64,000 nucleotides of DNA from contig NZ_CACVCH010000125.1 in assembly GCF_902729425.1 (NCBI RefSeq), forward strand, positions 1 to 64,000, given 5' to 3'. The DNA is from Magnetospirillum sp. SS-4. Lineage in GTDB: Bacteria > Pseudomonadota > Alphaproteobacteria > Rhodospirillales > Magnetospirillaceae. Shown here piece by piece: positions 19,001 to 35,194 of the stretch. The first letter of the stretch is position 1; every line of letters starts with the position of its first letter. The translations under genes were made by a program, and so were the position numbers. A model generated the notes under the pieces. The model was not told where the DNA came from. It saw nothing but the letters and a program-made list of their open reading frames with translations, and ran no database searches.

Positions 19001-20647
19001 ATGATCGACTTTCAGACATCCCCGGATCGCTACAGGCACTGGAAGCTGTCGTTCGACGGCCCGGTCGCCACCCTGACCATGGACGTTGACCCGGCCAGCA
19101 CCCTGGCGCCGGGCTACGAGCTCAAGATGAATTCCTACGACCTCGGCGTCGACATCGAGCTGTACGACGCCGTCCAGCGCCTGCGCTTCGAGCATCCCGA
19201 GGTGCGCGCCGTGGTGATGGCGTCGGCCAATCCCAAGATCTTCTGCGCCGGCGCCAACATCAAGATGCTGGGGGTCTCGTCGCACGGCCACAAGGTCAAT
19301 TTCTGCAAGTTCACCAACGAGACCAGGAATTCCATCGAGGACGCCACCGAGAACTCGCGCCAGAAATACCTGTGCGCGGTCAGCGGCACGGCGGCCGGCG
19401 GCGGCTACGAACTGGCGCTCGCCACCGACTGGATCATGATGGTCGACGACGGCAACACGGCGGTGTCGCTGCCCGAGGTGCCGCTGCTGGCGGTGCTGCC
19501 CGGCACCGGCGGCCTGACCCGCGTGGTGGACAAGCGCAAGGTGCGCCGCGATCTGGCCGACATCTTCTGTTCCATCGAGGAGGGCGTGAAGGGCAAGCGC
19601 GCCGTGGAATGGCGGCTGGTGGACGAGGTCATTCCGTCCTCGGCCTTCAAGGACGCGGTCCGCAAGCGGGCCGAGGCCATGGCCGCCACCTCGGACCGTC
19701 CCGGCGGCAAGGGCGTCACGCTCGACCATCCCGCCCGCGCCATCTCGGACGAGGCGGTCAGCTATCCCCATGTCCACATCACCTTCGACCGCGGCAACCG
19801 TTGCGCCCACATCACCATCAGGGGGCCGGGCGCCGACGCTCCCGCCGACGCCGCCGGCATCCACGCCCAGGGCGTCGGGTTCTGGCCGCTGGCCCTGGCC
19901 CGCGAGCTGGACGACGCCATTCTTCACCTGCGCGCCAACGAGACATCGCTGGCCAGCTGGGTGATCCGCGCCGAGGGCGATGCCGATCTGGTGACGGGCT
20001 ATGACGCGCTGTTGCAGAAGACCCAGGACGACTGGCTGTCCCGCGAGATCCTGCTGTACTGGAAGCGGACGCTGAAGCGCCTGGACGTCACCTCGCGCAC
20101 CCTTTACGCCCTGGTGGAACCGGGATCGTGCTTCGCCGGAATGCTGGCCGAAATCCTGTTCGCGGTGGACCGCTCCTACATGCTGGACGGAACCTTCGAG
20201 GGCGACGACCGGCCGGCCGCCACCATCCGCCTGTCGGCGCTGAACTTCGACGGCCTGCCCATGGGCAACGGCATCTCGCGCATCGCCACCCGCTTCCTGG
20301 GCGAGCCCGACACCGTCGGCAAGGCCAGGGACACCATCGGCCGGGACCTGGACGCCGCCGCCTGCGCCGCGCTGGGTCTGGTCACCGCCACCCCCGACGA
20401 CATCGACTGGGAGGACGAGATCCGGCTGACGATCGAGGAACGCGCCAGCTTCTCGCCCGATTCGCTGACCGGCATGGAGGCCAATCTCCGCTTCGCCGGC
20501 CCCGAGACCATGGAAACCAAGATCTTCGGCCGCCTGACCGCCTGGCAGAACTGGATATTCCAGCGCCCCAACGCCGTCGGCGACAACGGCGCCCTCAAGC
20601 TCTACGGCACCGGCAAACGCGCCGCCTATAATCAGGAAAGGGTGTAG
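19001..20647 (+). CDS. boxC: 2,3-epoxybenzoyl-CoA dihydrolase (benzoyl-CoA-dihydrodiol lyase)
   Basis: Ring-opening enzyme of the aerobic benzoyl-CoA pathway: it adds two waters to 2,3-epoxybenzoyl-CoA, giving 3,4-dehydroadipyl-CoA semialdehyde and formate. At 548 residues it matches the long, double crotonase-like BoxC family. The N-terminal half has CAGANIKML and SGTAAGGGYELALATD, which form the CoA oxyanion-hole region. The second half repeats a crotonase-like pattern (LSREILLYWKRTLKR...LVEPGSCFAGMLAEILFA). It follows the TGCA-palindrome promoter by about 40 bases and precedes boxB by four bases. Confidence 0.95.
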   Translation: MIDFQTSPDRYRHWKLSFDGPVATLTMDVDPASTLAPGYELKMNSYDLGVDIELYDAVQRLRFEHPEVRAVVMASANPKIFCAGANIKMLGVSSHGHKVNFCKFTNETRNSIEDATENSRQKYLCAVSGTAAGGGYELALATDWIMMVDDGNTAVSLPEVPLLAVLPGTGGLTRVVDKRKVRRDLADIFCSIEEGVKGKRAVEWRLVDEVIPSSAFKDAVRKRAEAMAATSDRPGGKGVTLDHPARAISDEAVSYPHVHITFDRGNRCAHITIRGPGADAPADAAGIHAQGVGFWPLALARELDDAILHLRANETSLASWVIRAEGDADLVTGYDALLQKTQDDWLSREILLYWKRTLKRLDVTSRTLYALVEPGSCFAGMLAEILFAVDRSYMLDGTFEGDDRPAATIRLSALNFDGLPMGNGISRIATRFLGEPDTVGKARDTIGRDLDAAACAALGLVTATPDDIDWEDEIRLTIEERASFSPDSLTGMEANLRFAGPETMETKIFGRLTAWQNWIFQRPNAVGDNGALKLYGTGKRAAYNQERV

Positions 20648-24343: not shown

Positions 24344-26467
24344 ATGGCCGAGCGATCATTCCATCATGAGATTCAGTCGCTGCGGCTGGGCGACGGCCAG
24401 ACCTTCCGGGGCGAGGGCATTCTGGCCGTCACCAAGGCGTTGCTGCAATCGGGCATCTCCTATGTGGGCGGCTACCAGGGCGCGCCGGTGTCGCACCTGA
24501 TGGACGTGCTGGTGGAGGCCGAGGACCTGCTGTCCGAACTGGGCATCCACATCGAGGCCTGTACCAACGAGGCCGGCGCCGCCGCCATGCTGGGCGCCTC
24601 GATCGCCTATCCCATCCGGGGCGCGGTGACCTGGAAATCGGTGGTGGGCACCAATGTCGCCTCCGACGCCCTGTCCAACCTGGCCTCGCCCGGCGTGATC
24701 GGCGGCGCCATGATCATCATCGGCGAGGATTACGGCGACGGGGCGAGCGTCATCCAGGAACGCAGCCACGCCTTCGCCATGAAATCCTCCATCTGGCTGC
24801 TGGACCCGCGCCCCAACCTGCCCAGCATCGTCGCCATGGTGGAAAAGGGGTTCGAGCTGTCCGAGGCCAGCAATTCACCGGTCATGCTGGACCTGCGCAT
24901 CAAGGCCTGTCACGTCACCGGCTCGTTCGTCACCAGCGACAACCGCCCGGCCGCCGCCCGCTCCGGCCCGGCGGCGTTCGATTACGGCCGGCTGTCGCAT
25001 CCGCCCAGCACCTTCGCCCACGAGATCGCCAAGGCCGAGGACCGCATGCCCCGCGCCCGGCGCTTCATCGCCGAGCATCGCCTGAACGAGCTGTTCGACG
25101 GCGATCTGGCCGAGATCGGCATCGTGGTGCAGGGCGGGCTCTACAACTCGCTGATGCGGGCCCTGATGCGGGTCGGCCTCGCCGACGCCCTGGGCAACAG
25201 CCGGGTACCGGTCTATTGCCTCAACGTCACCTATCCGCTGGTGCCGGAGGAGGTGGTGGCGTTCTGCACCTCCAGGCGCGCCGTACTGATGGTCGAGGAG
25301 GGCTGTCCCGACTACATCGAGCAGGCGCTGGGCCAGATCCTGCGCAAGGCCGGCCTTCCGACCGGATTGTTCGGCAAGGGCTGCCTGCCCCAGGCCGGCG
25401 AGTACACCTCGGACGTGCTGGTCGAAGGGCTGGCCGCCTTCCTGGAACAGGTGGGGCCGGCCGGCTTCGATCCGGTCCACGCCCGCAAGGTGGCCGACGA
25501 GATCGCCGGACGCCGCAAGGCCGCCGCCGGGCTGCTGGAGGCCGAACTTCCCGGCCGCCAGCCGGGATTTTGCACCGGCTGTCCAGAACGGCCGGTGTTC
25601 GCCGCCCTCAAGCTGGCACAGAAGGAGGTGGGCGCCACCCACGTCTCCGCCGATATCGGCTGTCATTCCTTCGGCACCCTGCCGCCGTTCAGCATGGGCA
25701 ATTCCATCCTGGGCTTCGGCATGAGCCTCGCATCGGCGGCGGCGGTCGGCCCCCATATCGGCCGCCGCCCGGTGGCGGTGATGGGCGATGGCGGCTTCTG
25801 GCACAACGGCGCCATCACCGGCGTGGCCGGGACGCTCTACAATCGCGGCGACGGCGTGCTGGTGATCCTCCAGAACGGCTATACCTCGGCCACCGGCCAG
25901 CAATTCATGCCGTCCTCCATCGCCGAGGGCCGGCGGCCCGAAACCCCCATGAACATCGAGGCGACCCTGAAGGTCATGGGGGTCAAGTGGCTGAGGACGG
26001 TGCGGTCGTACTCGGTGGGCGCCATGAAATCCGCCCTGGCCGAGGCCATGGCCGGCACCGGCAAGGGGCTGCGGGTGATCATCGCCGACGGCGAATGCCA
26101 GTTGGCCCGCCAGCGCCGGGTCAAGGTCGAGGATTCGGCGAAACTGAAGGCCGGCGAGCGGGTGGTGCGGGTGCGCTACGGCGTCGACGACGAGATCTGT
26201 TCCGGCGACCATTCCTGCATCCGGCTGTCGGGCTGTCCGTCGCTGACCATCAAGCCCAACCCCGACCCGTTGCGCGACGATCCGGTGGCGTCGGTGATCA
26301 ATTCCTGCGTCGGCTGCGGCCTGTGCGGCGAGGTCGCCCACGCCGCCGTGCTGTGCCCGTCGTTCTGGCGGGCCGAGGTGATCCAGAATCCCAACCGCCT
26401 CGACCTGTGGCTGGAATCCTGGCGACGGCGGGTCAGGACATGGCTGAGCGGGAGGGTGGCGGCATGA
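24344..26467 (+). CDS. iorA: Indolepyruvate ferredoxin oxidoreductase-type alpha subunit
   Basis: A 707-residue TPP-dependent 2-oxoacid:ferredoxin oxidoreductase subunit of the IorA family, which makes aryl-acetyl-CoA from arylpyruvates. N-terminal pyrimidine-binding domain: GGYQGAPVSHLMDVL and ACTNEAGAAAMLGAS. TPP/Mg site: MGDGGFWHNGAITG...NGY near residues 475-510. The C-terminus has two cysteine-rich [4Fe-4S] sites (CSGDHSCIRLSGCP and CVGCGLCGEVAHAAVLCP). AGGAGGGCGGC precedes the ATG. It overlaps iorB by four bases. Its place after the box genes suggests aromatic acid metabolism, but the substrate (arylpyruvate or an aroylformate) is unknown. Confidence 0.85.
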   Translation: MAERSFHHEIQSLRLGDGQTFRGEGILAVTKALLQSGISYVGGYQGAPVSHLMDVLVEAEDLLSELGIHIEACTNEAGAAAMLGASIAYPIRGAVTWKSVVGTNVASDALSNLASPGVIGGAMIIIGEDYGDGASVIQERSHAFAMKSSIWLLDPRPNLPSIVAMVEKGFELSEASNSPVMLDLRIKACHVTGSFVTSDNRPAAARSGPAAFDYGRLSHPPSTFAHEIAKAEDRMPRARRFIAEHRLNELFDGDLAEIGIVVQGGLYNSLMRALMRVGLADALGNSRVPVYCLNVTYPLVPEEVVAFCTSRRAVLMVEEGCPDYIEQALGQILRKAGLPTGLFGKGCLPQAGEYTSDVLVEGLAAFLEQVGPAGFDPVHARKVADEIAGRRKAAAGLLEAELPGRQPGFCTGCPERPVFAALKLAQKEVGATHVSADIGCHSFGTLPPFSMGNSILGFGMSLASAAAVGPHIGRRPVAVMGDGGFWHNGAITGVAGTLYNRGDGVLVILQNGYTSATGQQFMPSSIAEGRRPETPMNIEATLKVMGVKWLRTVRSYSVGAMKSALAEAMAGTGKGLRVIIADGECQLARQRRVKVEDSAKLKAGERVVRVRYGVDDEICSGDHSCIRLSGCPSLTIKPNPDPLRDDPVASVINSCVGCGLCGEVAHAAVLCPSFWRAEVIQNPNRLDLWLESWRRRVRTWLSGRVAA

Positions 26468-27987
26468 GCGCGTCCAACAAGCCCATATCCATCGTCATCG
26501 CCGCCATGGGCGGCGAGGGCGGCGGCGTGCTCACCGACTGGCTGGTGGAGGCCGCCAACGCCGAGGGTCTGGCGGTGCAGAGCACCTCGGTGCCCGGCGT
26601 CGCCCAGCGCACCGGCGCCACCACCTATTACATCGAGATCTTTCCGGTGCCGCTGGCCCAGTTGAACGGGGCCGCGCCCATTCTCGCCCTGGCGCCCTCG
26701 GTGGGCGACGTCGATCTGGTGGTGGCCACCGAACTGATGGAGGCGGCCCGCACCGTTTCCCGCGGCTACGCCACCCCGGAACGCACCCGCCTGATCGCCT
26801 CGACCCACCGGGTCTACGCCATCGACGAGAAGGCGGCCATGGGCGACGGCCGCGCCGATTCCGAGGCGCTGCGGCGGACGATCGAGGCCGGCACCCATGC
26901 CCGGCTGCTGTTCGACATGGAACAGGCGGCGAAACAGGCCGGCTGCATCGTCAATTCGGTGCTGCTGGGCGCCATCGCCGGCAGCGGCGTGCTGCCGATT
27001 CCGGCCGAGACCTTCGAGGCCGGCATCACCGCCGCCGGCAAGGCGGTCGACAGCAACCTGAGGGGATTCCGCGCCGGCCTCGCCGCCGCCCGGGGCGAGG
27101 TTCCGGCCCCGGCGGCCGCCCCGCACAAGCGGCCCCACGCCGAATCCGCCGCCGCCCTGCCGCTGGTGGCCCGCGCCCACGCCGAACTGCCCGAACCGGC
27201 CCAGGCCATGGCGGCGGAAGGCGTCCGGCGTCTGGTCGCCTATCAGGACCAGCGCTACGCCGCCCTTTACCTGGAGCGTCTAGGCCTGATCTGGACGGCG
27301 GAACGCGACACCGGCGGCGACGGAACGCTGACCCGGAATGTGGCCCGCCATCTGGCGGTGCGCATGTCGTTCGAGGACGTGATCCGGGTGGCGCAGTTGA
27401 AGACCGACCCCGCCCGCTTCGACCGCATCCGCGCCGAGGCCGGCGCGGCGGCCGGCCAACCGGTGGTGGTGACCGATTTCCTGAAGCCGGGCATCGAGGA
27501 GGTCTGCTCCCTTCTGCCCGGAATCGTCGCCCGGCCGATCCTGGCCCTGGCGCGGCGCCGGGGCTGGATCGACCGCGTCCATGTGGGACGGAAGGTCACG
27601 AGCAGCGGCGCGGCCGGATTCGCCACCTTGTGGCTGATGGCCCGCCTCAAGGGCTGGCGGCGGCACGGCCATCGGTTCGGCGAGGAACAGCGCGCCATCG
27701 AATTGTGGCTGGAATCAATCCGGCGGGCGCTGGGATGCTCGGTGGAACTGGCGGTCGAAGTGGCGGAATGCGCCCGTCTGGTCAAGGGCTACGGCGAGAC
27801 GTGGCGGCGCGGCGAGGGCAATTTCCGCCGTATCCACCAAGCCGTCATCGTCCCCGCCGTCACCGGGCTCTGGCCGCCGGCCTTCGCGCTGGACGCCATC
27901 GTCAACGCCCGCGCCGCCGCCCTGGCCGACCCCGAGGGCCGGGGACTGGAGCGCACCCTGGAGGCGATGGCGAAACGGGCGACGTAG
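26464..27987 (+). CDS. iorB: Indolepyruvate ferredoxin oxidoreductase-type beta subunit with long C-terminal domain
   Basis: Second subunit of the 2-oxoacid oxidoreductase. Residues 1-200 are the gamma-type domain of the 2-oxoacid oxidoreductases (IAAMGGEGGGVLTDWLVEA, VPGVAQRTGATTYYIEIFP). Residues about 215-507 form an additional helical domain (DUF6537-like) absent from the short archaeal IorB (about 200 residues). The ATG at 26464 overlaps the iorA stop (ATGA). Long IorB forms occur in aerobic proteobacteria, where the electron acceptor is not always ferredoxin. It ends 22 bases from the convergent STAS gene. Confidence 0.85.
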   Translation: MSASNKPISIVIAAMGGEGGGVLTDWLVEAANAEGLAVQSTSVPGVAQRTGATTYYIEIFPVPLAQLNGAAPILALAPSVGDVDLVVATELMEAARTVSRGYATPERTRLIASTHRVYAIDEKAAMGDGRADSEALRRTIEAGTHARLLFDMEQAAKQAGCIVNSVLLGAIAGSGVLPIPAETFEAGITAAGKAVDSNLRGFRAGLAAARGEVPAPAAAPHKRPHAESAAALPLVARAHAELPEPAQAMAAEGVRRLVAYQDQRYAALYLERLGLIWTAERDTGGDGTLTRNVARHLAVRMSFEDVIRVAQLKTDPARFDRIRAEAGAAAGQPVVVTDFLKPGIEEVCSLLPGIVARPILALARRRGWIDRVHVGRKVTSSGAAGFATLWLMARLKGWRRHGHRFGEEQRAIELWLESIRRALGCSVELAVEVAECARLVKGYGETWRRGEGNFRRIHQAVIVPAVTGLWPPAFALDAIVNARAAALADPEGRGLERTLEAMAKRAT

Positions 27988-28009: not shown

Positions 28010-28339
28010 TCAGAGGGCGGCGAGGGCGGCGGCGCGGTCCGGATGGATGGCGAGGATCTTGGCGAAGCCGGAAACGTCGAAAATTTCCCGGATATTGGGC
28101 TTCATGGCGCACAGCACGAACTTGCGGCTGCCCCGGGTCATCTTGGCCCCCACCAGCACCACCCGCAGGCCGGCGCTGGAGATGTAGTTCAGTTCGCTGA
28201 AGTCGATGACGATCTTGGTGGCGCCGGAATTGACGACCGCCAGGACCTTGGCCTCGAAGGCCTTGGCCGACGAACTGTCGACGCGGGCCAGGGGCACCAG
28301 GACCGTGGCGTCGCCGATGGTCTCTTCACGGATTTCCAT
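28010..28339 (-). CDS. STAS-domain anti-sigma-factor antagonist-like protein
   Basis: A 109-residue single STAS domain. The phosphorylatable serine region is intact (ELNYISSAGLRVVLVGAK, serines near 57-58). In partner-switching systems such a protein is phosphorylated by an RsbW-type kinase and dephosphorylated by a SpoIIE-type phosphatase, and only one form binds the downstream target. Both activities are predicted in the gene five bases upstream. The final target (a sigma factor, diguanylate cyclase or other protein) is not encoded next to it. Confidence 0.9.
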   Translation of the reverse strand: MEIREETIGDATVLVPLARVDSSSAKAFEAKVLAVVNSGATKIVIDFSELNYISSAGLRVVLVGAKMTRGSRKFVLCAMKPNIREIFDVSGFAKILAIHPDRAAALAAL

Positions 28340-28344
28340 GAGCT

Positions 28345-31137
28345 TCAGCTCTCCTGTGCTCCAACGGTCTTGCGGAGGACCGTGACGTTGCGCCGATCCT
28401 CGTGGCGATACTCGGTCCGGTCCATGAACTCCTTGACCAGGAAGACGCCCAGCCCGCCGATGGGACGGTCGTCCACCTCAAGGTCCAGGTCTGGCTCCGG
28501 CGCCTGGGTGAAGGGATCGTACTCGTTGGCATCATCGATGATCTCGGTGACGAATTCACGGCCGTCGTAGCTGAAATTCACCACGATGTCATGGGGGTCT
28601 TCGTCATCGTATCCGTAGGAGATAATATTGGTGATCAACTCGTCCAGGCAAACGTTGAGGTTGAAGGCGAGTTTCTCGGGCAGGGCGTGCTTTTCGACGA
28701 AGGCGTCGACCAGTCCGGCGAGACGTTCCAACTCGCTCACGTCGTTGGCGATGGTGACGCCGAGGCGGTCGGGCTCCATCGCCGCAGCCGACGGGGACGG
28801 GGGAAGCGGTTGGGCTGGGGGCGTCATCATCCTGACCGGCGGCGTCGATGCAATGGACGAAACCACCACCGGAGCCGGCCTGGGGCGGATCACGCCCTTC
28901 AGCGACGGCGAGGCGGCGGCGATGGCGGGGGGGGCGTCGTTTGCCGCCTCCCCGTCGGCGGCGGCGCCCTTGAAGCCGGTGAGCATCAGGCGCCGCTGGG
29001 GCTGTTCGGTTCCGGCCCCATCCGGGGACGGCCGGTCGAAGCGCAGGGTCAGCATGGTGATGTCGTCGAATTGCGGCGCGGTGCCGACGAACGCCTCGAC
29101 CGAGCGCAGGACATGGCCGATCACCGCCTCGGGATGGTTGTCGGCCACCTGCCCCAGTTCCCCGATCAGCCGGGGTTCGTCGTACAGGGCATCCTCGGGG
29201 TCCTGGGCCTCGGTGACCCCGTCGGTGTAGAGGTGCACCACCTCGCCGGGAGCCAGGATGAAGCGGCCGGTTTCGTAGTCCAGATCCTCCATGACGCCGA
29301 GCGCCACGCCGGAAACGTCCCGGATCGCCTCGATCCGGCCGTCGCCGCGCAGGATCAGCGCCGGTGGATGGCCGGCGTTGCAGAAGGCGACCTCGCCGTT
29401 CCTGGTGTCCAGCACCCCGTAGAAGCAGGTGGCGAACAGGGTCTGGGGATTGTCGCGCGACAGCATGGTGTTGACGAAGGCCAGGCATTCGCCCGGAGTG
29501 GCCGACAGCGGCGCCACCGCCTTGACCAGGGACCGGGTGATGGCGATGAACATGGCCGCCGGCACGCCCTTGCCCGAGGCGTCGCCGATCACGAAGCCGA
29601 GATGGTGGTGGTCGATCAGGAAGAAGTCGTAGAAATCCCCCCCCACCTCCTTGGCCGGCACCATGGAGGCGTGAATCTGGAATTCCTGCCGGTCGGGGAA
29701 CGGCGGGAACACCTGCGGCAGCGAACTCAGCTGGAGTTCGCGGGCGAAGTCCAGTTCCTGGCGCAGCATCGCCAGCTGGTCGCGGGTCCGCAGGGCCTCG
29801 CGCAGAATCTCGATGTCGCGGGTCCGCTCGGCGATCAGGGTTTCCAGCCGCTCGTGCTGCTCGCGGATGCGCGACGACATGGTCTGGAACGCCACCGCCA
29901 GCACGTCCAGTTCGCCCTTCGAGGACGGCCCCTCGCCACCGGCCTCGGTGGCCCGGCTGGACAGTGCCTCGATCTGCTTCAGATCGTCCAGCACCGCCTC
30001 GCGGGCGTCTTGCTCCAGCATCTCGGACAGTTTCAGCATCTGGAGGCGGATGAACAGTTCCTGGCGGCGGCGCTGGCGTTCGCGCCGCTCCTCCAGCAGG
30101 TCCAGCTTGATGGCGTTCTCGCGGAACACGCCGACGGTGCTGGCGATGCGGCCGATCTCGTCGTTGTCGTTCTTCACCTCCAGCATCACCGAGGTGTCGC
30201 CCCGCGACAGGGCGTTCAGCACGGTGATGGCCTGATCCAGCGGATCGAACGAACGGCGCAGGTAAAGCGAGAACACCCCCAGAACCAGAACCAGGAAGCC
30301 GGCGACGGCGCCGATGGCGACGACGCGAATCCGGTGCTGGCGCGCCTGGGTGTCGGTGGAATCGCGGACGCTGACCAGGGAGCCGATCACCCGGCCCTGG
30401 CCGTCGCCCAGGGGGAACACCACCACCGAGTAGAAACGGTCGCCGTCGGGCCAGGTTTCCAGGCGGCTCTTGCGGGTGCCGAGGCGGGAATCGAACACCG
30501 TCCACAGCCGGTCGTCGGTGCCGTCGCTCATGTGGCCGCCGCGGTCGAGCAGGAACACGTCCGAGCCGGTGGCCGCCTTGAATTCCTCGATGGGCGGACG
30601 CAGGTCGGACATGATGGTGGCGACGCCGGCGACGGCGCCGTCCTCCAGGATCAGCGGCAAGGTGATGACGGCGATGAAGCGCTTGTCGCTGTTTTGCATG
30701 ATGCCGGCGCGGGCCTTGCGGCTTTCGGCGATAAGCCGCACCGTCGCGGTGTCGGCCAGGGGATTGTCCAGCAGCGATCCCCTGGAGGTGTAGAGAAGTT
30801 CGCCGTCCAGCCCGACGATCTCGAAACGGCTGACCGCCGGCCGGCGGCGGATGGCCTCGGCGGTGGGGGCGACGGTCTCGCGCACCTGGGTCGGGTTCTT
30901 GCGGGCCACCGCGATGATCATCTCGCGGTTGGACTGAAGCAGCGGCACGGCGGCTTCCAGGCGCTGGACGGTGTTTTCCACCAGCTTGTCCCAGAAGATC
31001 TGCTGGCCGTTGAGGGTGGCGCTGGCATAGCGCTCGTCCGCCAGTTCCTCGCTCTTCAGGCCGGCGAAGGTCAGGCCGACCACCAGCAGCGAATAGGTGA
31101 GCGTGACGATCAGGGTTACGCGCGTGCGAAGAAGCAT
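28345..31137 (-). CDS. Membrane sensor-HAMP-SpoIIE phosphatase with C-terminal RsbW-like kinase domain
   Basis: A 930-residue one-protein switch. TM1 is at about 7-27, a periplasmic dCache-like sensor at about 30-270, TM2 at about 273-295, HAMP at 296-350, a coiled coil at 350-470, and a PP2C/SpoIIE phosphatase at about 480-700 (KEVGGDFYDFF, IGDASGKGVPAAMF, DDITMLTLRF metal-binding aspartates). A Pro/Ala-rich linker leads to an HATPase_c domain at about 790-925 (N box CLDELITNIISYGY, G box GGLGVFLVKEF). Phosphatase and Ser/Thr kinase acting on the same STAS protein would be combined; HsbR of Pseudomonas is a soluble precedent. It lies five bases before the STAS gene. Confidence 0.9.
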   Translation of the reverse strand: MLLRTRVTLIVTLTYSLLVVGLTFAGLKSEELADERYASATLNGQQIFWDKLVENTVQRLEAAVPLLQSNREMIIAVARKNPTQVRETVAPTAEAIRRRPAVSRFEIVGLDGELLYTSRGSLLDNPLADTATVRLIAESRKARAGIMQNSDKRFIAVITLPLILEDGAVAGVATIMSDLRPPIEEFKAATGSDVFLLDRGGHMSDGTDDRLWTVFDSRLGTRKSRLETWPDGDRFYSVVVFPLGDGQGRVIGSLVSVRDSTDTQARQHRIRVVAIGAVAGFLVLVLGVFSLYLRRSFDPLDQAITVLNALSRGDTSVMLEVKNDNDEIGRIASTVGVFRENAIKLDLLEERRERQRRRQELFIRLQMLKLSEMLEQDAREAVLDDLKQIEALSSRATEAGGEGPSSKGELDVLAVAFQTMSSRIREQHERLETLIAERTRDIEILREALRTRDQLAMLRQELDFARELQLSSLPQVFPPFPDRQEFQIHASMVPAKEVGGDFYDFFLIDHHHLGFVIGDASGKGVPAAMFIAITRSLVKAVAPLSATPGECLAFVNTMLSRDNPQTLFATCFYGVLDTRNGEVAFCNAGHPPALILRGDGRIEAIRDVSGVALGVMEDLDYETGRFILAPGEVVHLYTDGVTEAQDPEDALYDEPRLIGELGQVADNHPEAVIGHVLRSVEAFVGTAPQFDDITMLTLRFDRPSPDGAGTEQPQRRLMLTGFKGAAADGEAANDAPPAIAAASPSLKGVIRPRPAPVVVSSIASTPPVRMMTPPAQPLPPSPSAAAMEPDRLGVTIANDVSELERLAGLVDAFVEKHALPEKLAFNLNVCLDELITNIISYGYDDEDPHDIVVNFSYDGREFVTEIIDDANEYDPFTQAPEPDLDLEVDDRPIGGLGVFLVKEFMDRTEYRHEDRRNVTVLRKTVGAQES

Positions 31138-31171
31138 CGTCCCCCCTTGGCCGTGGCCGTCTCGCGCCCGC

Positions 31172-32194
31172 TCATTTCACGCCGCCCTCCGCCGGATCGA
31201 AGACCTCGGCCAGGCCCAGCAGCTTCATGGGAGGATAGATGCCCAGCCGGCGGACCACCGGCATGTTGATGATGATCGACAGCCGCCTGGGGGCGTCGAT
31301 GGCGATGTCGGCCGGCCTGACCTTGTGGACCAGGATCTGCTCGGCCTTGTAGGCGGTGAGCTGGCCGACCGTGTAGTAGCGGTAGACGCCCCCGAACATG
31401 GCCTTGGAGGTGAGGACGGCGTTCTCGCCCACCGCGAAGCTGGGAATGCCCAGTTCCAGCGCCGCGCCGGTCAGGAGATCGCGGTTGACGTTGAGAAAGG
31501 TGTCCGGCGGAATGTAAAGGAAGTCGATGCCGGCTGTCTTCAGTTCGGCCACCTTGCCGGCGATGCTGGCCGGGTTGGGCTTGCCGTCCACCAGGTCGAC
31601 CGCGCGGGTCTCCAGGGTGAAGCCCGATTTCTCGCCGATGGCGCCCATCTCCTCGATGGCCACCAGGGCGTTGCGCTCCAGCGGAATGTAGACCACGCCA
31701 AGCCGGGACAGCGGCCGGTACGACTGGATCAGGTTGGCCTGGGTCTCGGGCGGAACCAGATAGGTGGTGCCGGTGATGTTGCGCCCCGACGACGACAGCG
31801 ACGGCACCACGCCCCCCAACGGCTGCGACACGATGGCGAACACCGCCGGAATGTCGGTGATGTGGCGTGCCGGGTCGACGGCGTCGTGGCGGCCCAGCAT
31901 CTCCTCGGTGACGGTGGTGCCCCAGGTGAAGACCAGATCGACGTTCAGGCGCCGGGCCTCGGCGACGAAGTCCTTCAGCTTGGCCTTGTCCTGGCCAGCG
32001 TCGCGCACGATCAGCTCGACCGGGATGTCCTGGTTGGCGAAATAGTCCTTGAAGCCCTGGGCCGCCTCCTCCCAGCCGCGCCACAGCGCCATGTAGATGC
32101 GGAACGGCTTGGCCGGCGGGTCGGCGGCCACGGCGGCCGGCGAGCCGCCGGCCAGCATCAGCAGGGCGAGGACAAGTCCGGCCAGCCGCCTCAT
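31172..32194 (-). CDS. Periplasmic ABC-type substrate-binding protein without transporter partners
   Basis: A 340-residue binding protein of the TrpX/PF04392 (DUF534) family, with a clear signal peptide (MRRLAGLVLALLMLAGGSPAAVAA). Motifs of the two-lobe fold are visible: TWGTTVTEEML, FAIVSQPLGG, LGVVYIPLERNA, DFLYIPPDTFLN and FAVGENAVL. Related proteins bind aromatic amino acids or similar small molecules. The ATG overlaps the HAMP-MFS stop (ATGA). No ABC permease or ATPase lies in the operon, so it may instead present ligand to the sensor proteins. The ligand is not predictable. Confidence 0.85.
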   Translation of the reverse strand: MRRLAGLVLALLMLAGGSPAAVAADPPAKPFRIYMALWRGWEEAAQGFKDYFANQDIPVELIVRDAGQDKAKLKDFVAEARRLNVDLVFTWGTTVTEEMLGRHDAVDPARHITDIPAVFAIVSQPLGGVVPSLSSSGRNITGTTYLVPPETQANLIQSYRPLSRLGVVYIPLERNALVAIEEMGAIGEKSGFTLETRAVDLVDGKPNPASIAGKVAELKTAGIDFLYIPPDTFLNVNRDLLTGAALELGIPSFAVGENAVLTSKAMFGGVYRYYTVGQLTAYKAEQILVHKVRPADIAIDAPRRLSIIINMPVVRRLGIYPPMKLLGLAEVFDPAEGGVK

Positions 32195-34281
32195 TCCGCC
32201 AGCTCCGTCTCGATATGGGGACCGGAGCCGTAGGCGAAGGACAGCAGCGCGAACACCACGCTCATGCCCAGCACCAGCCAGCCCAGCGCCACGATGGCGC
32301 CCTCCTGGCCATGAAGCGGAATCAGGGCGGCGGCCAGCAGGGGGCCGGCGACGCTGCCGACGCGCTCGGCCAGGCGCAGGAAGGCCAGCACGTTGGTCTG
32401 GCCCATGTTGCGGCACTCGATCCAGCAGACGTCGGGAATCATCGCCAGTTGCGGCGACGCCGACAGGCCGTGCGACAGCCCCAGCAACACGATGGCCAGG
32501 GCGATCATCTCCAGGCCGGGCGCCAGCATGGGCAGCAGCATGCCGGCGCCGCCGATCACGCCGCCGACCGCCACCAGCCCGGCCTTCCAGCCGGTGCGGT
32601 CCGCCAGCCGCGCCGCCAGCGGCGACAGCAGCACCACCGCCACCGGGTAGAGCATCATCATCCGGGCCACGTCGCCGAGGGCGATGCCCCGGTCCTGGGT
32701 CAGGGCGAGGGGAACCAGGAAGAACAGGAAGCCGGTCAGGGCGATCTTGCTGGGAATGGCGGCGAACAGCACCAGGGCGCTGAAACGCCAGTTGCGCAGC
32801 AGGCCCAGCAGTTCCCGCTTCCTGGGGGCCCGGTCGCGGCCCTGGGGCTGGGCGGCGGCCACCAGACGGTAGATCAGCATGCCGGCGACCAGGGCCAGGA
32901 GGGCGGCGATGACGAAGGTGGTGCGATAGCCGACCCTCTCGGCCAGCACGCCGCCGATGCCGGTGCCGCAGACGCTGGCGGTGAGCACCGCCCCCACATA
33001 GACCCCCAGTCCCTGGGTGCGGTTCTGCTGCTGCGACGCCTGCGAAATGTAGCCCTGGCAGGCCATAGTGATGACGGCGTAGCCGGTCGCCGTCACCGCC
33101 CGCCACAAGATGAAGTCGTAGACGTTGTGGGCCAGGGCGGTCATCAGGAAGCCGATCACCGCCGGAATCAGGCCGGCCAGGAACACCCTGCGGCTGCCCA
33201 GCCGGGCGGTGGCCAGGGCGGCCGAGGGCGAGGCCAGGGCGATCACCAGCATGAACACCGCGATCGGGATGGCGATGACCATCTCCCGCGACAGCCCCTC
33301 GATGGGGGCGTAGAGACTGCTGATGTAAAGCGGCATGAACGAGCGCGAGATTTCCTCGGCGAACACGAACAGGAACAGCGGCAGGCGGATGTCGGTGGCC
33401 TGACGCTCGGTGACCACCTCGGGCTGGCCGGTCCGCGAGAAGCGGAACAGGAAGCGGACGCGGGAATCGATGTCGGCCACCCGCTCGACCACCGACTTGT
33501 CGAAATGGGCCGACCTGACCTCGTCGATATAGGCGTCCAGGCGGCGGAACAGGTCGTCGGCCCGACGGATGGCGGCGTTGAAGCGGTGGACGAACCGCCC
33601 GACCTCGTCATCCGAGCCGCCGCCGCAGATGGCGGTGAAGTCACCCCGCCGGACCTTGTCGACCACCTTTCCCACCACCCGCATGGGGCCGGTGACGTTG
33701 GCGGCGACCACGAACAGCAGAATTTCCACCGCCACCAGCAGCGAGACCAGCGTCACCACCCCGATGTCCACGGTGATTTCCAGCAGGCGGTCGCGGACGT
33801 AATCGTGGTCGATGCCGACGTGAAGGTGGCCGACGTCCGAGCCCTTCACCGTCAGGGACTGGGTCAGGTTGATGAAGTTGCCGATGATGGATTTCGGATG
33901 CTCGGCGCCGGCGGCGCCGAAATCGGCGACGCTGAAATAGGGCTCCAGCGCCTCGCGGCCGGCGCCGCTGAGAAACAGGATGGCGCCGGACGGGTCGGTG
34001 ACCGCCAGATAGCGGATTTCCGGATTGGCGGCCAGCACCGGGGCGAAGAAGTCCTCCATTCCCTGCAAGCTGGCGATGGGAATGCCGAAGCCGACGGCGC
34101 GTTCGATGCTGGCGGCGAGATCGTGGCCGACGGTGACCGCCTTCTTATCCATTTCCGGCACCAGGCCGCGGGCGAATTCGTCCATGGCGCCGAAAGACAG
34201 CAGCCCCACCGGCGGCACCAGCACCAGGAAGGCCAGCAGCAGCAGCCGGACGAACAGCGGGCGGGTGCGGTCGAGGGTCAT
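32191..34281 (-). CDS. Periplasmic sensor-HAMP-MFS transporter fusion
   Basis: A 696-residue fusion. The N-terminal 255 residues look like a bacterial sensor: TM1 at about 10-30, a periplasmic domain at about 31-175 (EIRYLAVTDPSGAILFLSG), TM2 at about 178-200 and a HAMP domain (GPMRVVGKVVDKVRRGDFTA...DEVGRFVHRFNAAI). After a short coiled segment, residues about 290-690 form a 12-TM major facilitator protein (SAALATARLGSRRVFLAGL between helices, GLGVYVGAVLTASVCGTGIGG). There is no kinase or methyl-accepting output. The MFS part may be a sensor-gated transporter or a receptor. It overlaps both neighbours by four bases, so a sequencing artefact is unlikely. Confidence 0.85.
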   Translation of the reverse strand: MTLDRTRPLFVRLLLLAFLVLVPPVGLLSFGAMDEFARGLVPEMDKKAVTVGHDLAASIERAVGFGIPIASLQGMEDFFAPVLAANPEIRYLAVTDPSGAILFLSGAGREALEPYFSVADFGAAGAEHPKSIIGNFINLTQSLTVKGSDVGHLHVGIDHDYVRDRLLEITVDIGVVTLVSLLVAVEILLFVVAANVTGPMRVVGKVVDKVRRGDFTAICGGGSDDEVGRFVHRFNAAIRRADDLFRRLDAYIDEVRSAHFDKSVVERVADIDSRVRFLFRFSRTGQPEVVTERQATDIRLPLFLFVFAEEISRSFMPLYISSLYAPIEGLSREMVIAIPIAVFMLVIALASPSAALATARLGSRRVFLAGLIPAVIGFLMTALAHNVYDFILWRAVTATGYAVITMACQGYISQASQQQNRTQGLGVYVGAVLTASVCGTGIGGVLAERVGYRTTFVIAALLALVAGMLIYRLVAAAQPQGRDRAPRKRELLGLLRNWRFSALVLFAAIPSKIALTGFLFFLVPLALTQDRGIALGDVARMMMLYPVAVVLLSPLAARLADRTGWKAGLVAVGGVIGGAGMLLPMLAPGLEMIALAIVLLGLSHGLSASPQLAMIPDVCWIECRNMGQTNVLAFLRLAERVGSVAGPLLAAALIPLHGQEGAIVALGWLVLGMSVVFALLSFAYGSGPHIETELAE

Positions 34282-35120
34282 GCCAGCCGGTCCAGTCGCC
34301 CGACCTCATCGGTGGCGTCGCGGATGTGGTCGATGGCCTCGCGGGTCTTGTCGACGAATTCGGCGAAATGCTCCTCGAACTCGCCGCCTCCCGCCTCGGG
34401 AACCGCGTGCCCGCCCACCGACAGCACCTCGGTCAGGGCGTGTTCCATGCCGGCCAGCTTGCGTCCGACCCGGCCGAACAGCAGGTAAAGCCCGGCCAGG
34501 GCCACCACGGCGAAGATGGCCAGGTACACGCCAACCGCCTTGGCCAGTTCCAGCAGCAGGCCGCCCACCCCCTGTTCGACGTAGACGGCGGAATAGCGCA
34601 GCACCACACCGCCCTCGACCTTGCCCAGGGCGTTGACCAGCGGCAGGCCGACGATCAGGGTATCCTCGTCCGCGAGGCCGAAGGCCTGCGACGGGTTGCC
34701 GCGCGCCGCCTCGACCAGGGCGTCAGACACCTTGCCGCCGATGGCGCCGCGGTCGGTGTCGAACAGCACCTCGCCCCGGTGGTCGTAGACCTCGACGGCC
34801 AGGACCTGGGCGTCGCGCTGCTTCTCGTGTTCCAGGATATCCTGGACCTGCCGCAACTGGCGCAGCGACAGCCCCAGGTTCAGGCTGTCCTCCACCCGCT
34901 TCTTGATGGTGAAGACCATGAAGCTGTAGCGCGACTGTACCTGGGAGGAGTAAACGCTCTCGAACTTGAAGTAGGCGAAGAACCCCGCCACCAGCAAGGT
35001 GAACAGCAAGATGGAGATCAGCGCCAGCGACACCTTGCGGGCCAGCGACCAGCGGACCGGCCGGGGCGGCGGCAGGCCGCCGGACATGGCGGCGAGGCTG
35101 GTCTGGCCGATCTTCTCCAA
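34278..35120 (-). CDS. Two-TM periplasmic sensor protein without output domain
   Basis: A 280-residue membrane protein. It has TM1 at about 29-50, a periplasmic Cache-like region with a coiled start (KKRVEDSLNLGLSLRQLRQVQD, then VYDHRGEVLFDTDRG), TM2 at about 193-215 and a short cytoplasmic acidic helical tail. It has no kinase, HAMP or cyclase domain, so it probably works through its operon partners. The predicted start is TTG at 35120 with GAGG upstream; the ATG eleven codons later is an alternative. It is the first gene of the five-gene unit and overlaps the HAMP-MFS gene by four bases. Confidence 0.75.
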   Translation of the reverse strand: MEKIGQTSLAAMSGGLPPPRPVRWSLARKVSLALISILLFTLLVAGFFAYFKFESVYSSQVQSRYSFMVFTIKKRVEDSLNLGLSLRQLRQVQDILEHEKQRDAQVLAVEVYDHRGEVLFDTDRGAIGGKVSDALVEAARGNPSQAFGLADEDTLIVGLPLVNALGKVEGGVVLRYSAVYVEQGVGGLLLELAKAVGVYLAIFAVVALAGLYLLFGRVGRKLAGMEHALTEVLSVGGHAVPEAGGGEFEEHFAEFVDKTREAIDHIRDATDEVGRLDRLA

Positions 35121-35166
35121 GCCGCTCGGTCCTCGATCTGGGGTGATTCAAGCTAGCAACTGGAAG

Positions 35167-35194
35167 GTTATAGGATATTCCATGATAATGTCCA
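35167..35194 (-). promoter_or_regulatory. Predicted promoter of the five-gene sensor operon
   Basis: The minus strand reads TGGACA, 16 bases, TATAAC: five of six matches in each box. The start would be near 35160, about 40 bases before the TTG start of the sensor gene. It lies in the divergent region shared with murI. Confidence 0.6.

Follow-up and report, generated by a model that had tools for sequence, protein, structure and literature searches.

A conserved five-gene operon of Magnetospirillum sp. SS-4 combines periplasmic sensors, an MFS domain and a binding protein with the parts of a STAS partner switch

Partner switches are well known, whereas the way in which membrane signals reach them mostly is not. 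This question is raised by an operon of five genes, here called g1 to g5, in a 64,000-nt stretch of DNA from Magnetospirillum sp. SS-4 (contig NZ_CACVCH010000125.1; the window). The operon has two halves. The input half comprises a periplasmic sensor (g1), a sensor joined to a major facilitator superfamily (MFS) domain (g2) and a secreted binding protein (g3), and the output half a phosphatase-kinase protein (g4) and a STAS protein (g5). From the sequences, we consider it rather probable that the operon encodes a multi-part membrane receptor which drives a partner switch and sets the phosphorylation of the STAS protein. While partner switches as such are familiar outputs, the input joined to this one is unusual, conserved and apparently undescribed.

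All five open reading frames lie on the minus strand, and their coordinates agree with the junctions given in the initial annotation of this DNA, namely 4-base overlaps at g1/g2 and g2/g3, 34 bases between g3 and g4 and 5 bases between g4 and g5. The domain make-up proposed there was recovered by Pfam or, for g1, by a fold match. The promoter that it placed before g1 (TTGGACA-spacer-TATAAC, 35167-35194, minus strand) is supported by conserved blocks in aligned relatives. More specifically, CTTGGAC and AATATC-TATAA are identical and equally spaced upstream of g1 in all eight aligned sequences, the window included, and the flanks around these blocks diverge among the same eight upstream regions. 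The TTG start of g1 is also common to all eight. A consensus promoter scan did not list this promoter; the scan demands a T at the end of the -10 element, and the window has TATAAC. No RNA family was found at gathering scores in window positions 20000 to 45000.

The initial annotation treated these genes as one operon and made its reading depend on conservation of the gene order in relatives. The order g1-g2-g3-g4-g5 is kept in the loci of all five named relatives (Magnetospirillum sp. MAG, Phaeospirillum sp. MAG, Terasakiella sp. PR1 by its record title, M. moscoviense and Paramagnetospirillum caucaseum), with MurI divergent upstream of g1 in each, and the five genes accordingly hold as one conserved operon. 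An Amycolatopsis locus (L018) was left out, as it gave only a partial MFS match (23%). A close g2 (E 1e-196 or better) is present in 30 of the 55 genomes of the family, and all 30 also have g4 (E 1e-80) and g1 (E 1e-8). Three genomes of the same genus that lack g2 (G035, G036, G042) have neither g4 nor g1 at these thresholds. Two others carry only a divergent g2 (G003, 3e-92; G009, 1e-96); both give weak g1 matches, and G003 has a divergent g4. This shared presence and absence of g1, g2 and g4 across the 55 genomes indicates that genomes of the family either have or lack the operon as a whole. In genomes G039 and G002 g1 is split or interrupted, and it is split into two reading frames in loci L098 (10204-11108) and L078 (3934-4723).

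The output half contains all the parts of a partner switch. The STAS-only protein g5 (28010-28339; this and all further operon features on the minus strand) matches Pfam STAS at 6.4e-14. Its Ser55 aligns with a position that is Ser in 1th8 and Ala in 1tid and that we take to be the phospho-site of SpoIIAA, the anti-sigma F antagonist. An SSAG-type motif is found in 30 of 31 g5 proteins, the exception being YISSVG in locus L047. The g4 protein (28345-31137) consists, according to Pfam, of dCache_3, HAMP, a SpoIIE/PP2C phosphatase domain (2.2e-49; aa 510-700, 29038-29610) and an RsbW-type kinase domain, HATPase_c_2 (PF13581, 3.4e-24; aa 797-923, 28369-28749). The window protein carries the metal-site motifs GGDFYD, GDASGKG, YTDG and DDIT as well as the kinase N-box LDELITN, all read from the sequence. 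Among 32 g4 proteins, the GGDFYD-type motif occurs in 31 and both YTDG and DD[IVM]T in 32; two places (L013/L094 and L016/L080) are counted twice in these 32 g4 and 31 g5 proteins. A loose N-box pattern, found in 25 of the 32, is too permissive and was not used as evidence. The window thus has a STAS protein with a candidate phospho-Ser, the SpoIIE metal-site Asp motifs and an RsbW-type HATPase. No receiver domain (Response_reg) was matched in g4 at E 0.1; dCache_3 and HAMP are present instead. The best NCBIfam match of g4 is NF038263 (SiaA; 7.5e-18), with 64 bits against a cut-off of 700. Furthermore, 11 STAS_2 matches, g5 included, exceed the cut-off in the genome, which also holds five further SpoIIE-like matches, so the target of g5 cannot be guessed from the genome. 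A second, separate cluster in the same genome (contig C62, 17334-19124) contains in a row a SpoIIE-like, a STAS, a HATPase-like and a sub-threshold STAS-like gene.

The input half begins with g1 (34278-35120, TTG start), a protein with two transmembrane (TM) segments by hydropathy, a single periplasmic PAS/Cache-like sensor and a short cytoplasmic tail with no recognised output domain. It has no Pfam match at E 0.1 and was assigned by hydropathy, fold and homology to the sensor of g2. Its AlphaFold model (mean pLDDT 69.9, six sequences) suggests a fold like that of the extracytoplasmic PAS/Cache domains of WalK, DctB, CitA and DcuS in the Protein Data Bank (PDB). The g2 protein (32191-34281) was resolved by Pfam and a PDB profile search into a periplasmic sensor, a HAMP region (aa 192-240, 33562-33708) and an MFS domain (aa 292-690, 32212-33408; MFS_1, 8.5e-38). 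The HAMP match lies below the Pfam cut-off (E 0.029), but in the PDB profile search this stretch aligned with the chains of a histidine kinase and of a chemoreceptor, and it matches NF053592 as well. The sensors of g1 and g2 are homologous (hhalign 98.7%, E 4.5e-16) and are therefore not two unrelated sensors. Of the three different periplasmic sensing parts proposed initially, the sensors themselves are present, but those of g1 and g2 are related to each other.

The third input gene, g3 (31172-32194), encodes a substrate-binding protein of the ABC_sub_bind family (PF04392, 1e-15) with a signal peptide read from the sequence. Its PDB matches are 6hni, 3lft and 3lkv, and a TrpX model scored far below its cut-off. 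By Pfam, none of the five operon genes is an ABC permease or ATPase, and none was found among the matches listed (25 of 35 families) for 39 genes next to g3 in relatives. We rejected an ABC importer reading because the operon has neither a permease nor an ATPase.

The association of g1 with g2 is borne out by a comparison of 91 sensor-MFS proteins, 79 of which have a short N-terminal part and 12 a long one (L118 and L146 are the same place, so that the 79 count one protein twice). A separate g1 lies directly upstream of 77 of the 79 short proteins and of none of the 12 long ones (Fisher p 3e-13, with rows that are not independent). Two sensor stretches precede the MFS part in 11 of the 12 long proteins; in the twelfth (L149), the second stretch has 48 residues and fails the rule applied. 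A predicted second sensor thus nearly always accompanies g2, either as a gene or as a domain. The first sensor of the long proteins is nearer g1 in L149, L153, L154, L155 and L156 and nearer the g2 sensor in the other seven, and descent of the putative domain from g1 is clear in those five only.

To place the operon in a wider context, genomes were searched with a g2 profile (32 sequences) and with the g2 protein itself, in order, class and phylum samples that overlap. In the order sample, 76 of 317 genomes matched at E 1e-25 (protein query, which includes matches to the MFS part alone). At 1e-60, matches were found in 30 of 385 genomes of the class sample and in 10 of 398 of the phylum sample, five of the latter outside the class. 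We then compared 92 loci, made up of the window and 91 regions picked by hand, all with a g2 or MFS match. A sensor-MFS gene is present in 90 of them (56 genera, 35 families), and L075 and L160, which lack it, were dropped. In 83 of the 90 loci (50 of the 56 genera, 33 families), a gene for a binding protein is no more than three genes away from g2. Within eight genes of g2, SpoIIE is found in 44 loci, HATPase in 34, STAS in 34 and all three in 31; at least one of them is present in 47 loci (26 genera, 16 families). The fused SpoIIE-HATPase protein with a g4-type sensor was called in 19 loci, all of the window's family, and elsewhere kinase and phosphatase are separate genes. The remaining 43 loci have no such gene within eight genes of g2, although many contigs end early and some of these absences are only apparent. 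The initial annotation had the sensors and the binding protein feeding one STAS output. Their co-occurrence with SpoIIE, HATPase and STAS agrees with this, but given the 43 loci, such an output looks like a trait of some lineages rather than of the input module.

Links between the genes are also visible in single chains. In L069, an MFS domain and a Peripla_BP_6 binding protein form one chain, and in L142 and L145 a g2-type sensor, a g4-type sensor and SpoIIE do so. Such fusions tie g2 to a binding protein and also to g4, each in some organism, none of them of the window's genus. In addition, a second triad occurs in six loci (L137, L138, L139, L141, L143, L155); it comprises g1, a protein in which a g2-type sensor is followed by a multi-TM tail, and a protein with a g4-type sensor. 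The g4-type protein of L137 ends in a guanylate-cyclase domain, so that the output has been swapped. Eroded MFS domains form the tails in L137 and L138 (HMM E ~2e-9; hhalign 96-97% versus 0.2% for the reversed sequence); those of L139 and L143 match MFS in part (45% and 44%), and that of L155 gives no match. Shorter tails with no convincing MFS match are found in L046/L048 and L141. The eroded MFS tails beside signalling genes speak for a membrane domain that takes part in signalling, in those copies at least.

In the main family, some transporter features of the MFS domain of g2 are kept and others are not. Its nearest solved sequences are NorA, SLC18B1, VMAT2 and MdfA, which are drug or amine transporters (PDB profile search). 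Polar TM residues are kept in most of the 32 g2 sequences (E309 in 28, E310 in 26, R313 in 26, D561 in 31, E639 in 31), as are the presumed motif B Arg, R394 (31 of 32), and G443 of what we take to be motif C, GPxxGG (32 of 32). Within the window's clade, all 27 sequences share E309, E310, R313, R394, G443, G444 and E639; two of these sequences are counted twice (L013/L094 and L016/L080 are the same places). Less well kept are Pro440 of motif C (14 of 32) and D or E at position 359, presumably the acidic residue of motif A (17 of 32). The domain probably works as an antiporter or exporter, for the ligand that g3 would bind or for a related one, and at the same time as a signalling part, which would make it a transceptor.

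The genes around g3 in relatives may bear on the nature of such a ligand. A formyltransferase-like gene (PF00551) lies between g3 and g4 in many relatives and directly follows g3 in 17 loci of the window's family; a related gene immediately precedes g1 in the distant locus L134. It is absent from L094, L095 and the window, where we rejected a formyltransferase as part of the system: the g3-g4 gap measures 34 bases, and the best match in the genome (53 bits) lies elsewhere. Many of the formyltransferase-like proteins, as in L016/L017 (13100-14030; L080 is the same place as L016) and others, have a Cys-rich C-terminal tail (CCCAHA, CCSAPA). Of 39 other g3-neighbour genes, 38 directly after g3 and one between g2 and g3 (L053), 17 match GNAT acetyltransferases (PF00583) and five a PanB-like family (PF02548), both at E 0.01; about seven of the 39 loci belong to one genus (g102). 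With 37 control genes, taken from the same loci but at a distance from g3, no GNAT family with at least two members appeared among the best 25 of 81 families, which leaves room for a single GNAT match. GCS2-like ligases occur in L071 and L073 and an ATP-grasp protein in L138. Together, the neighbour enzymes suggest a small amine or amino-acid-like compound. In L076 (3-12355), the sensor-MFS gene and the binding protein lie near a formyltransferase-like gene and a large protein, the start of which resembles, by eye, a non-ribosomal peptide synthetase condensation domain.

Secretion genes form another group of neighbours. A search for TssC (PF05943) covered 80 of the 101 listed genomes that have a g2 or MFS match (G660 with MFS only), and 21 of the 80 have it. 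In seven genomes, three of them of one genus, it lies within 25 kb of the module, versus 0.29 expected under random placement, a figure that ignores relatedness and contig breaks. The module stands in or near type VI secretion genes in L150, L151, L153, L154, L147, L043 and L044. Pfam identified Hcp in L150 and L043, TssK in L153 and L044 and a VgrG-type protein in L147; in L153, the module follows the gene of a ClpB-type AAA protein, likewise identified by Pfam, with TssK a few genes on. Type III genes, again by Pfam, stand beside the module in L050 (needle and YscD) and L071 (CesT chaperone). No TssC match was found in the genome of the window. Downstream of the operon, IorA/IorB-like genes run convergent to it on the plus strand (24344-27987), and no match to them was found in the loci of the five named relatives.

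Taken together, these results allow a mechanism to be proposed. In the periplasm, g3 would capture a small ligand and present it to a hetero-complex of g1 and g2, in which the g2 sensor is joined through HAMP to the MFS domain. The state of this complex would be passed via HAMP and coiled-coil contacts to the sensor of g4, which would shift between the activities of a STAS kinase (HATPase) and a STAS-phosphate phosphatase (SpoIIE). Phosphorylation of g5 at Ser55 would then decide which target g5 binds. What the sequences show is the gene content, its conservation, the shared presence and absence of the genes, fusions of the parts elsewhere and intact motifs; for the window organism, the formation of this complex, the direction of the signal, phosphorylation, the ligand, the target and transport through the MFS domain are inferred. 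Several observations weigh against it. The D[AVS]SGKG pattern is present in only 25 of the 32 g4 proteins, and the g2 of the window has A359 in place of the acidic residue of motif A and T440 in place of the Pro of motif C. The 43 loci with no SpoIIE, HATPase or STAS gene nearby, some on cut contigs, point the same way, and since only five of the 12 first sensors of long g2 proteins are closer to g1, the fusions argue well for a second sensor but less well for g1 itself. The AlphaFold model of g2 (pLDDT 53.7, six sequences) was too poor to help and was discarded.

Other explanations read the same genes differently. That they are unrelated and share no function, lying side by side only by chance in a compact genome, is highly improbable: conservation of the order across genera, shared presence and absence and fusions lead us to reject it, and overlapping genes and the one conserved promoter also argue against it. 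A sensor-gated transporter, in which the output of g1, g2 and g3 would be export or exchange through an MFS domain gated by HAMP, with the partner switch as a parallel output in this lineage, appears to us rather unlikely. The compound would often be modified by the transferase encoded next to g3, and the GNAT and formyltransferase genes at that position are in line with this, as are the antiporter-type residues, the drug and amine transporters among the solved relatives and the 43 loci in which the input half has no partner-switch genes nearby. It fits poorly with the second copies of L137 and L138, which keep a strongly eroded MFS beside a signalling gene (a cyclase in L137), with the fusion of a g2-type sensor to a g4-type sensor and SpoIIE in L142 and L145, and with the joint presence or absence of g4 and g2 in the family. 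The same eroded tails, together with the replaced acidic residue of motif A in the window, would suit an MFS domain that is purely a receptor or membrane scaffold and transports nothing, as UhpC acts towards UhpB. We regard this as unlikely, as the TM charges, the motif B Arg and the motif C glycines are kept in the main family.

A membrane receptor that drives the partner switch thus remains the explanation we favour, and broader proposals can be attached to it. Tentatively, and with less confidence than doubt, g1, g2 and g3 may represent a new and widespread class of receptor, an MFS-HAMP transceptor with an obligate second Cache-type sensor, its own binding protein and exchangeable outputs; these would be a STAS partner switch, a cyclase or, perhaps, type VI or III secretion. 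In the boldest form, which we think quite doubtful, the neighbouring formyl-, acetyl- or PanB-like transferase would make a ligand that is exported by the MFS domain and sensed by g3, a self-made signal. The occurrence of the sensor-MFS gene with a binding protein across genera, often beside a transferase and sometimes near type VI genes, suggests an uncharacterised general sensing device. With this operon, two questions become open to test: can an MFS domain pass a signal on via HAMP, and from where do the STAS switches of alphaproteobacteria receive their input?

Among known systems, HsbR-HsbA of Pseudomonas aeruginosa and CrsR-CrsA of Shewanella oneidensis resemble g4 and g5 in that a phosphatase and an RsbW-type domain are joined in one protein beside a STAS-only protein; the phosphatase/kinase protein of the HsbR-HsbA type carries a receiver domain. 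In the operon, by contrast, a membrane dCache-HAMP sensor makes up the input together with g1, g2 and a binding protein, and g4 has no receiver match. Phosphorylated HsbA is reported to bind HsbR, and the unphosphorylated form FlgM (PMC6482189). The triad of phosphatase, kinase and STAS protein is shared with RsbU/SpoIIE-RsbW-RsbV systems, among them the alphaproteobacterial RbaVWY of Rhodobacter capsulatus (PMC3999984). Unlike in RsbU/RsbW/RsbV and RbaVWY, the kinase is fused to the phosphatase in the window's family, and a half with several sensors, an MFS domain and a binding protein lies upstream. The membrane phosphatase SiaA of SiaABC (PMC7647112) is of the SpoIIE type like g4, whereas g4 has a kinase domain in the same chain and its operon partners differ.

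The initial annotation knew of no described system of this composition, and we found no description of such a sensor-MFS module among the open-access literature matches listed, a coverage outside which most subscription papers fall. Fusions of MFS domains usually lie at the C-terminus, with CBS, cyclic-nucleotide-binding, PAS or UspA domains named as partners, according to PMC10710835, which cites an earlier survey. A transporter domain is fused to a signalling protein, as in g2, in the SLC5-STAC histidine kinases CbrA, CrbS and RpuS. Unlike these, g2 has MFS in place of SLC5, HAMP in place of STAC and no kinase in the chain; Pfam gave only MFS families and HAMP for g2, with neither SLC5 nor STAC domains. 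In UhpC-UhpB, an MFS receptor feeds a sensor protein, and in TorT-TorS a binding protein does so. Unlike either pair, the operon combines both arrangements and brings them together with Cache-HAMP sensors and a SpoIIE/STAS output.

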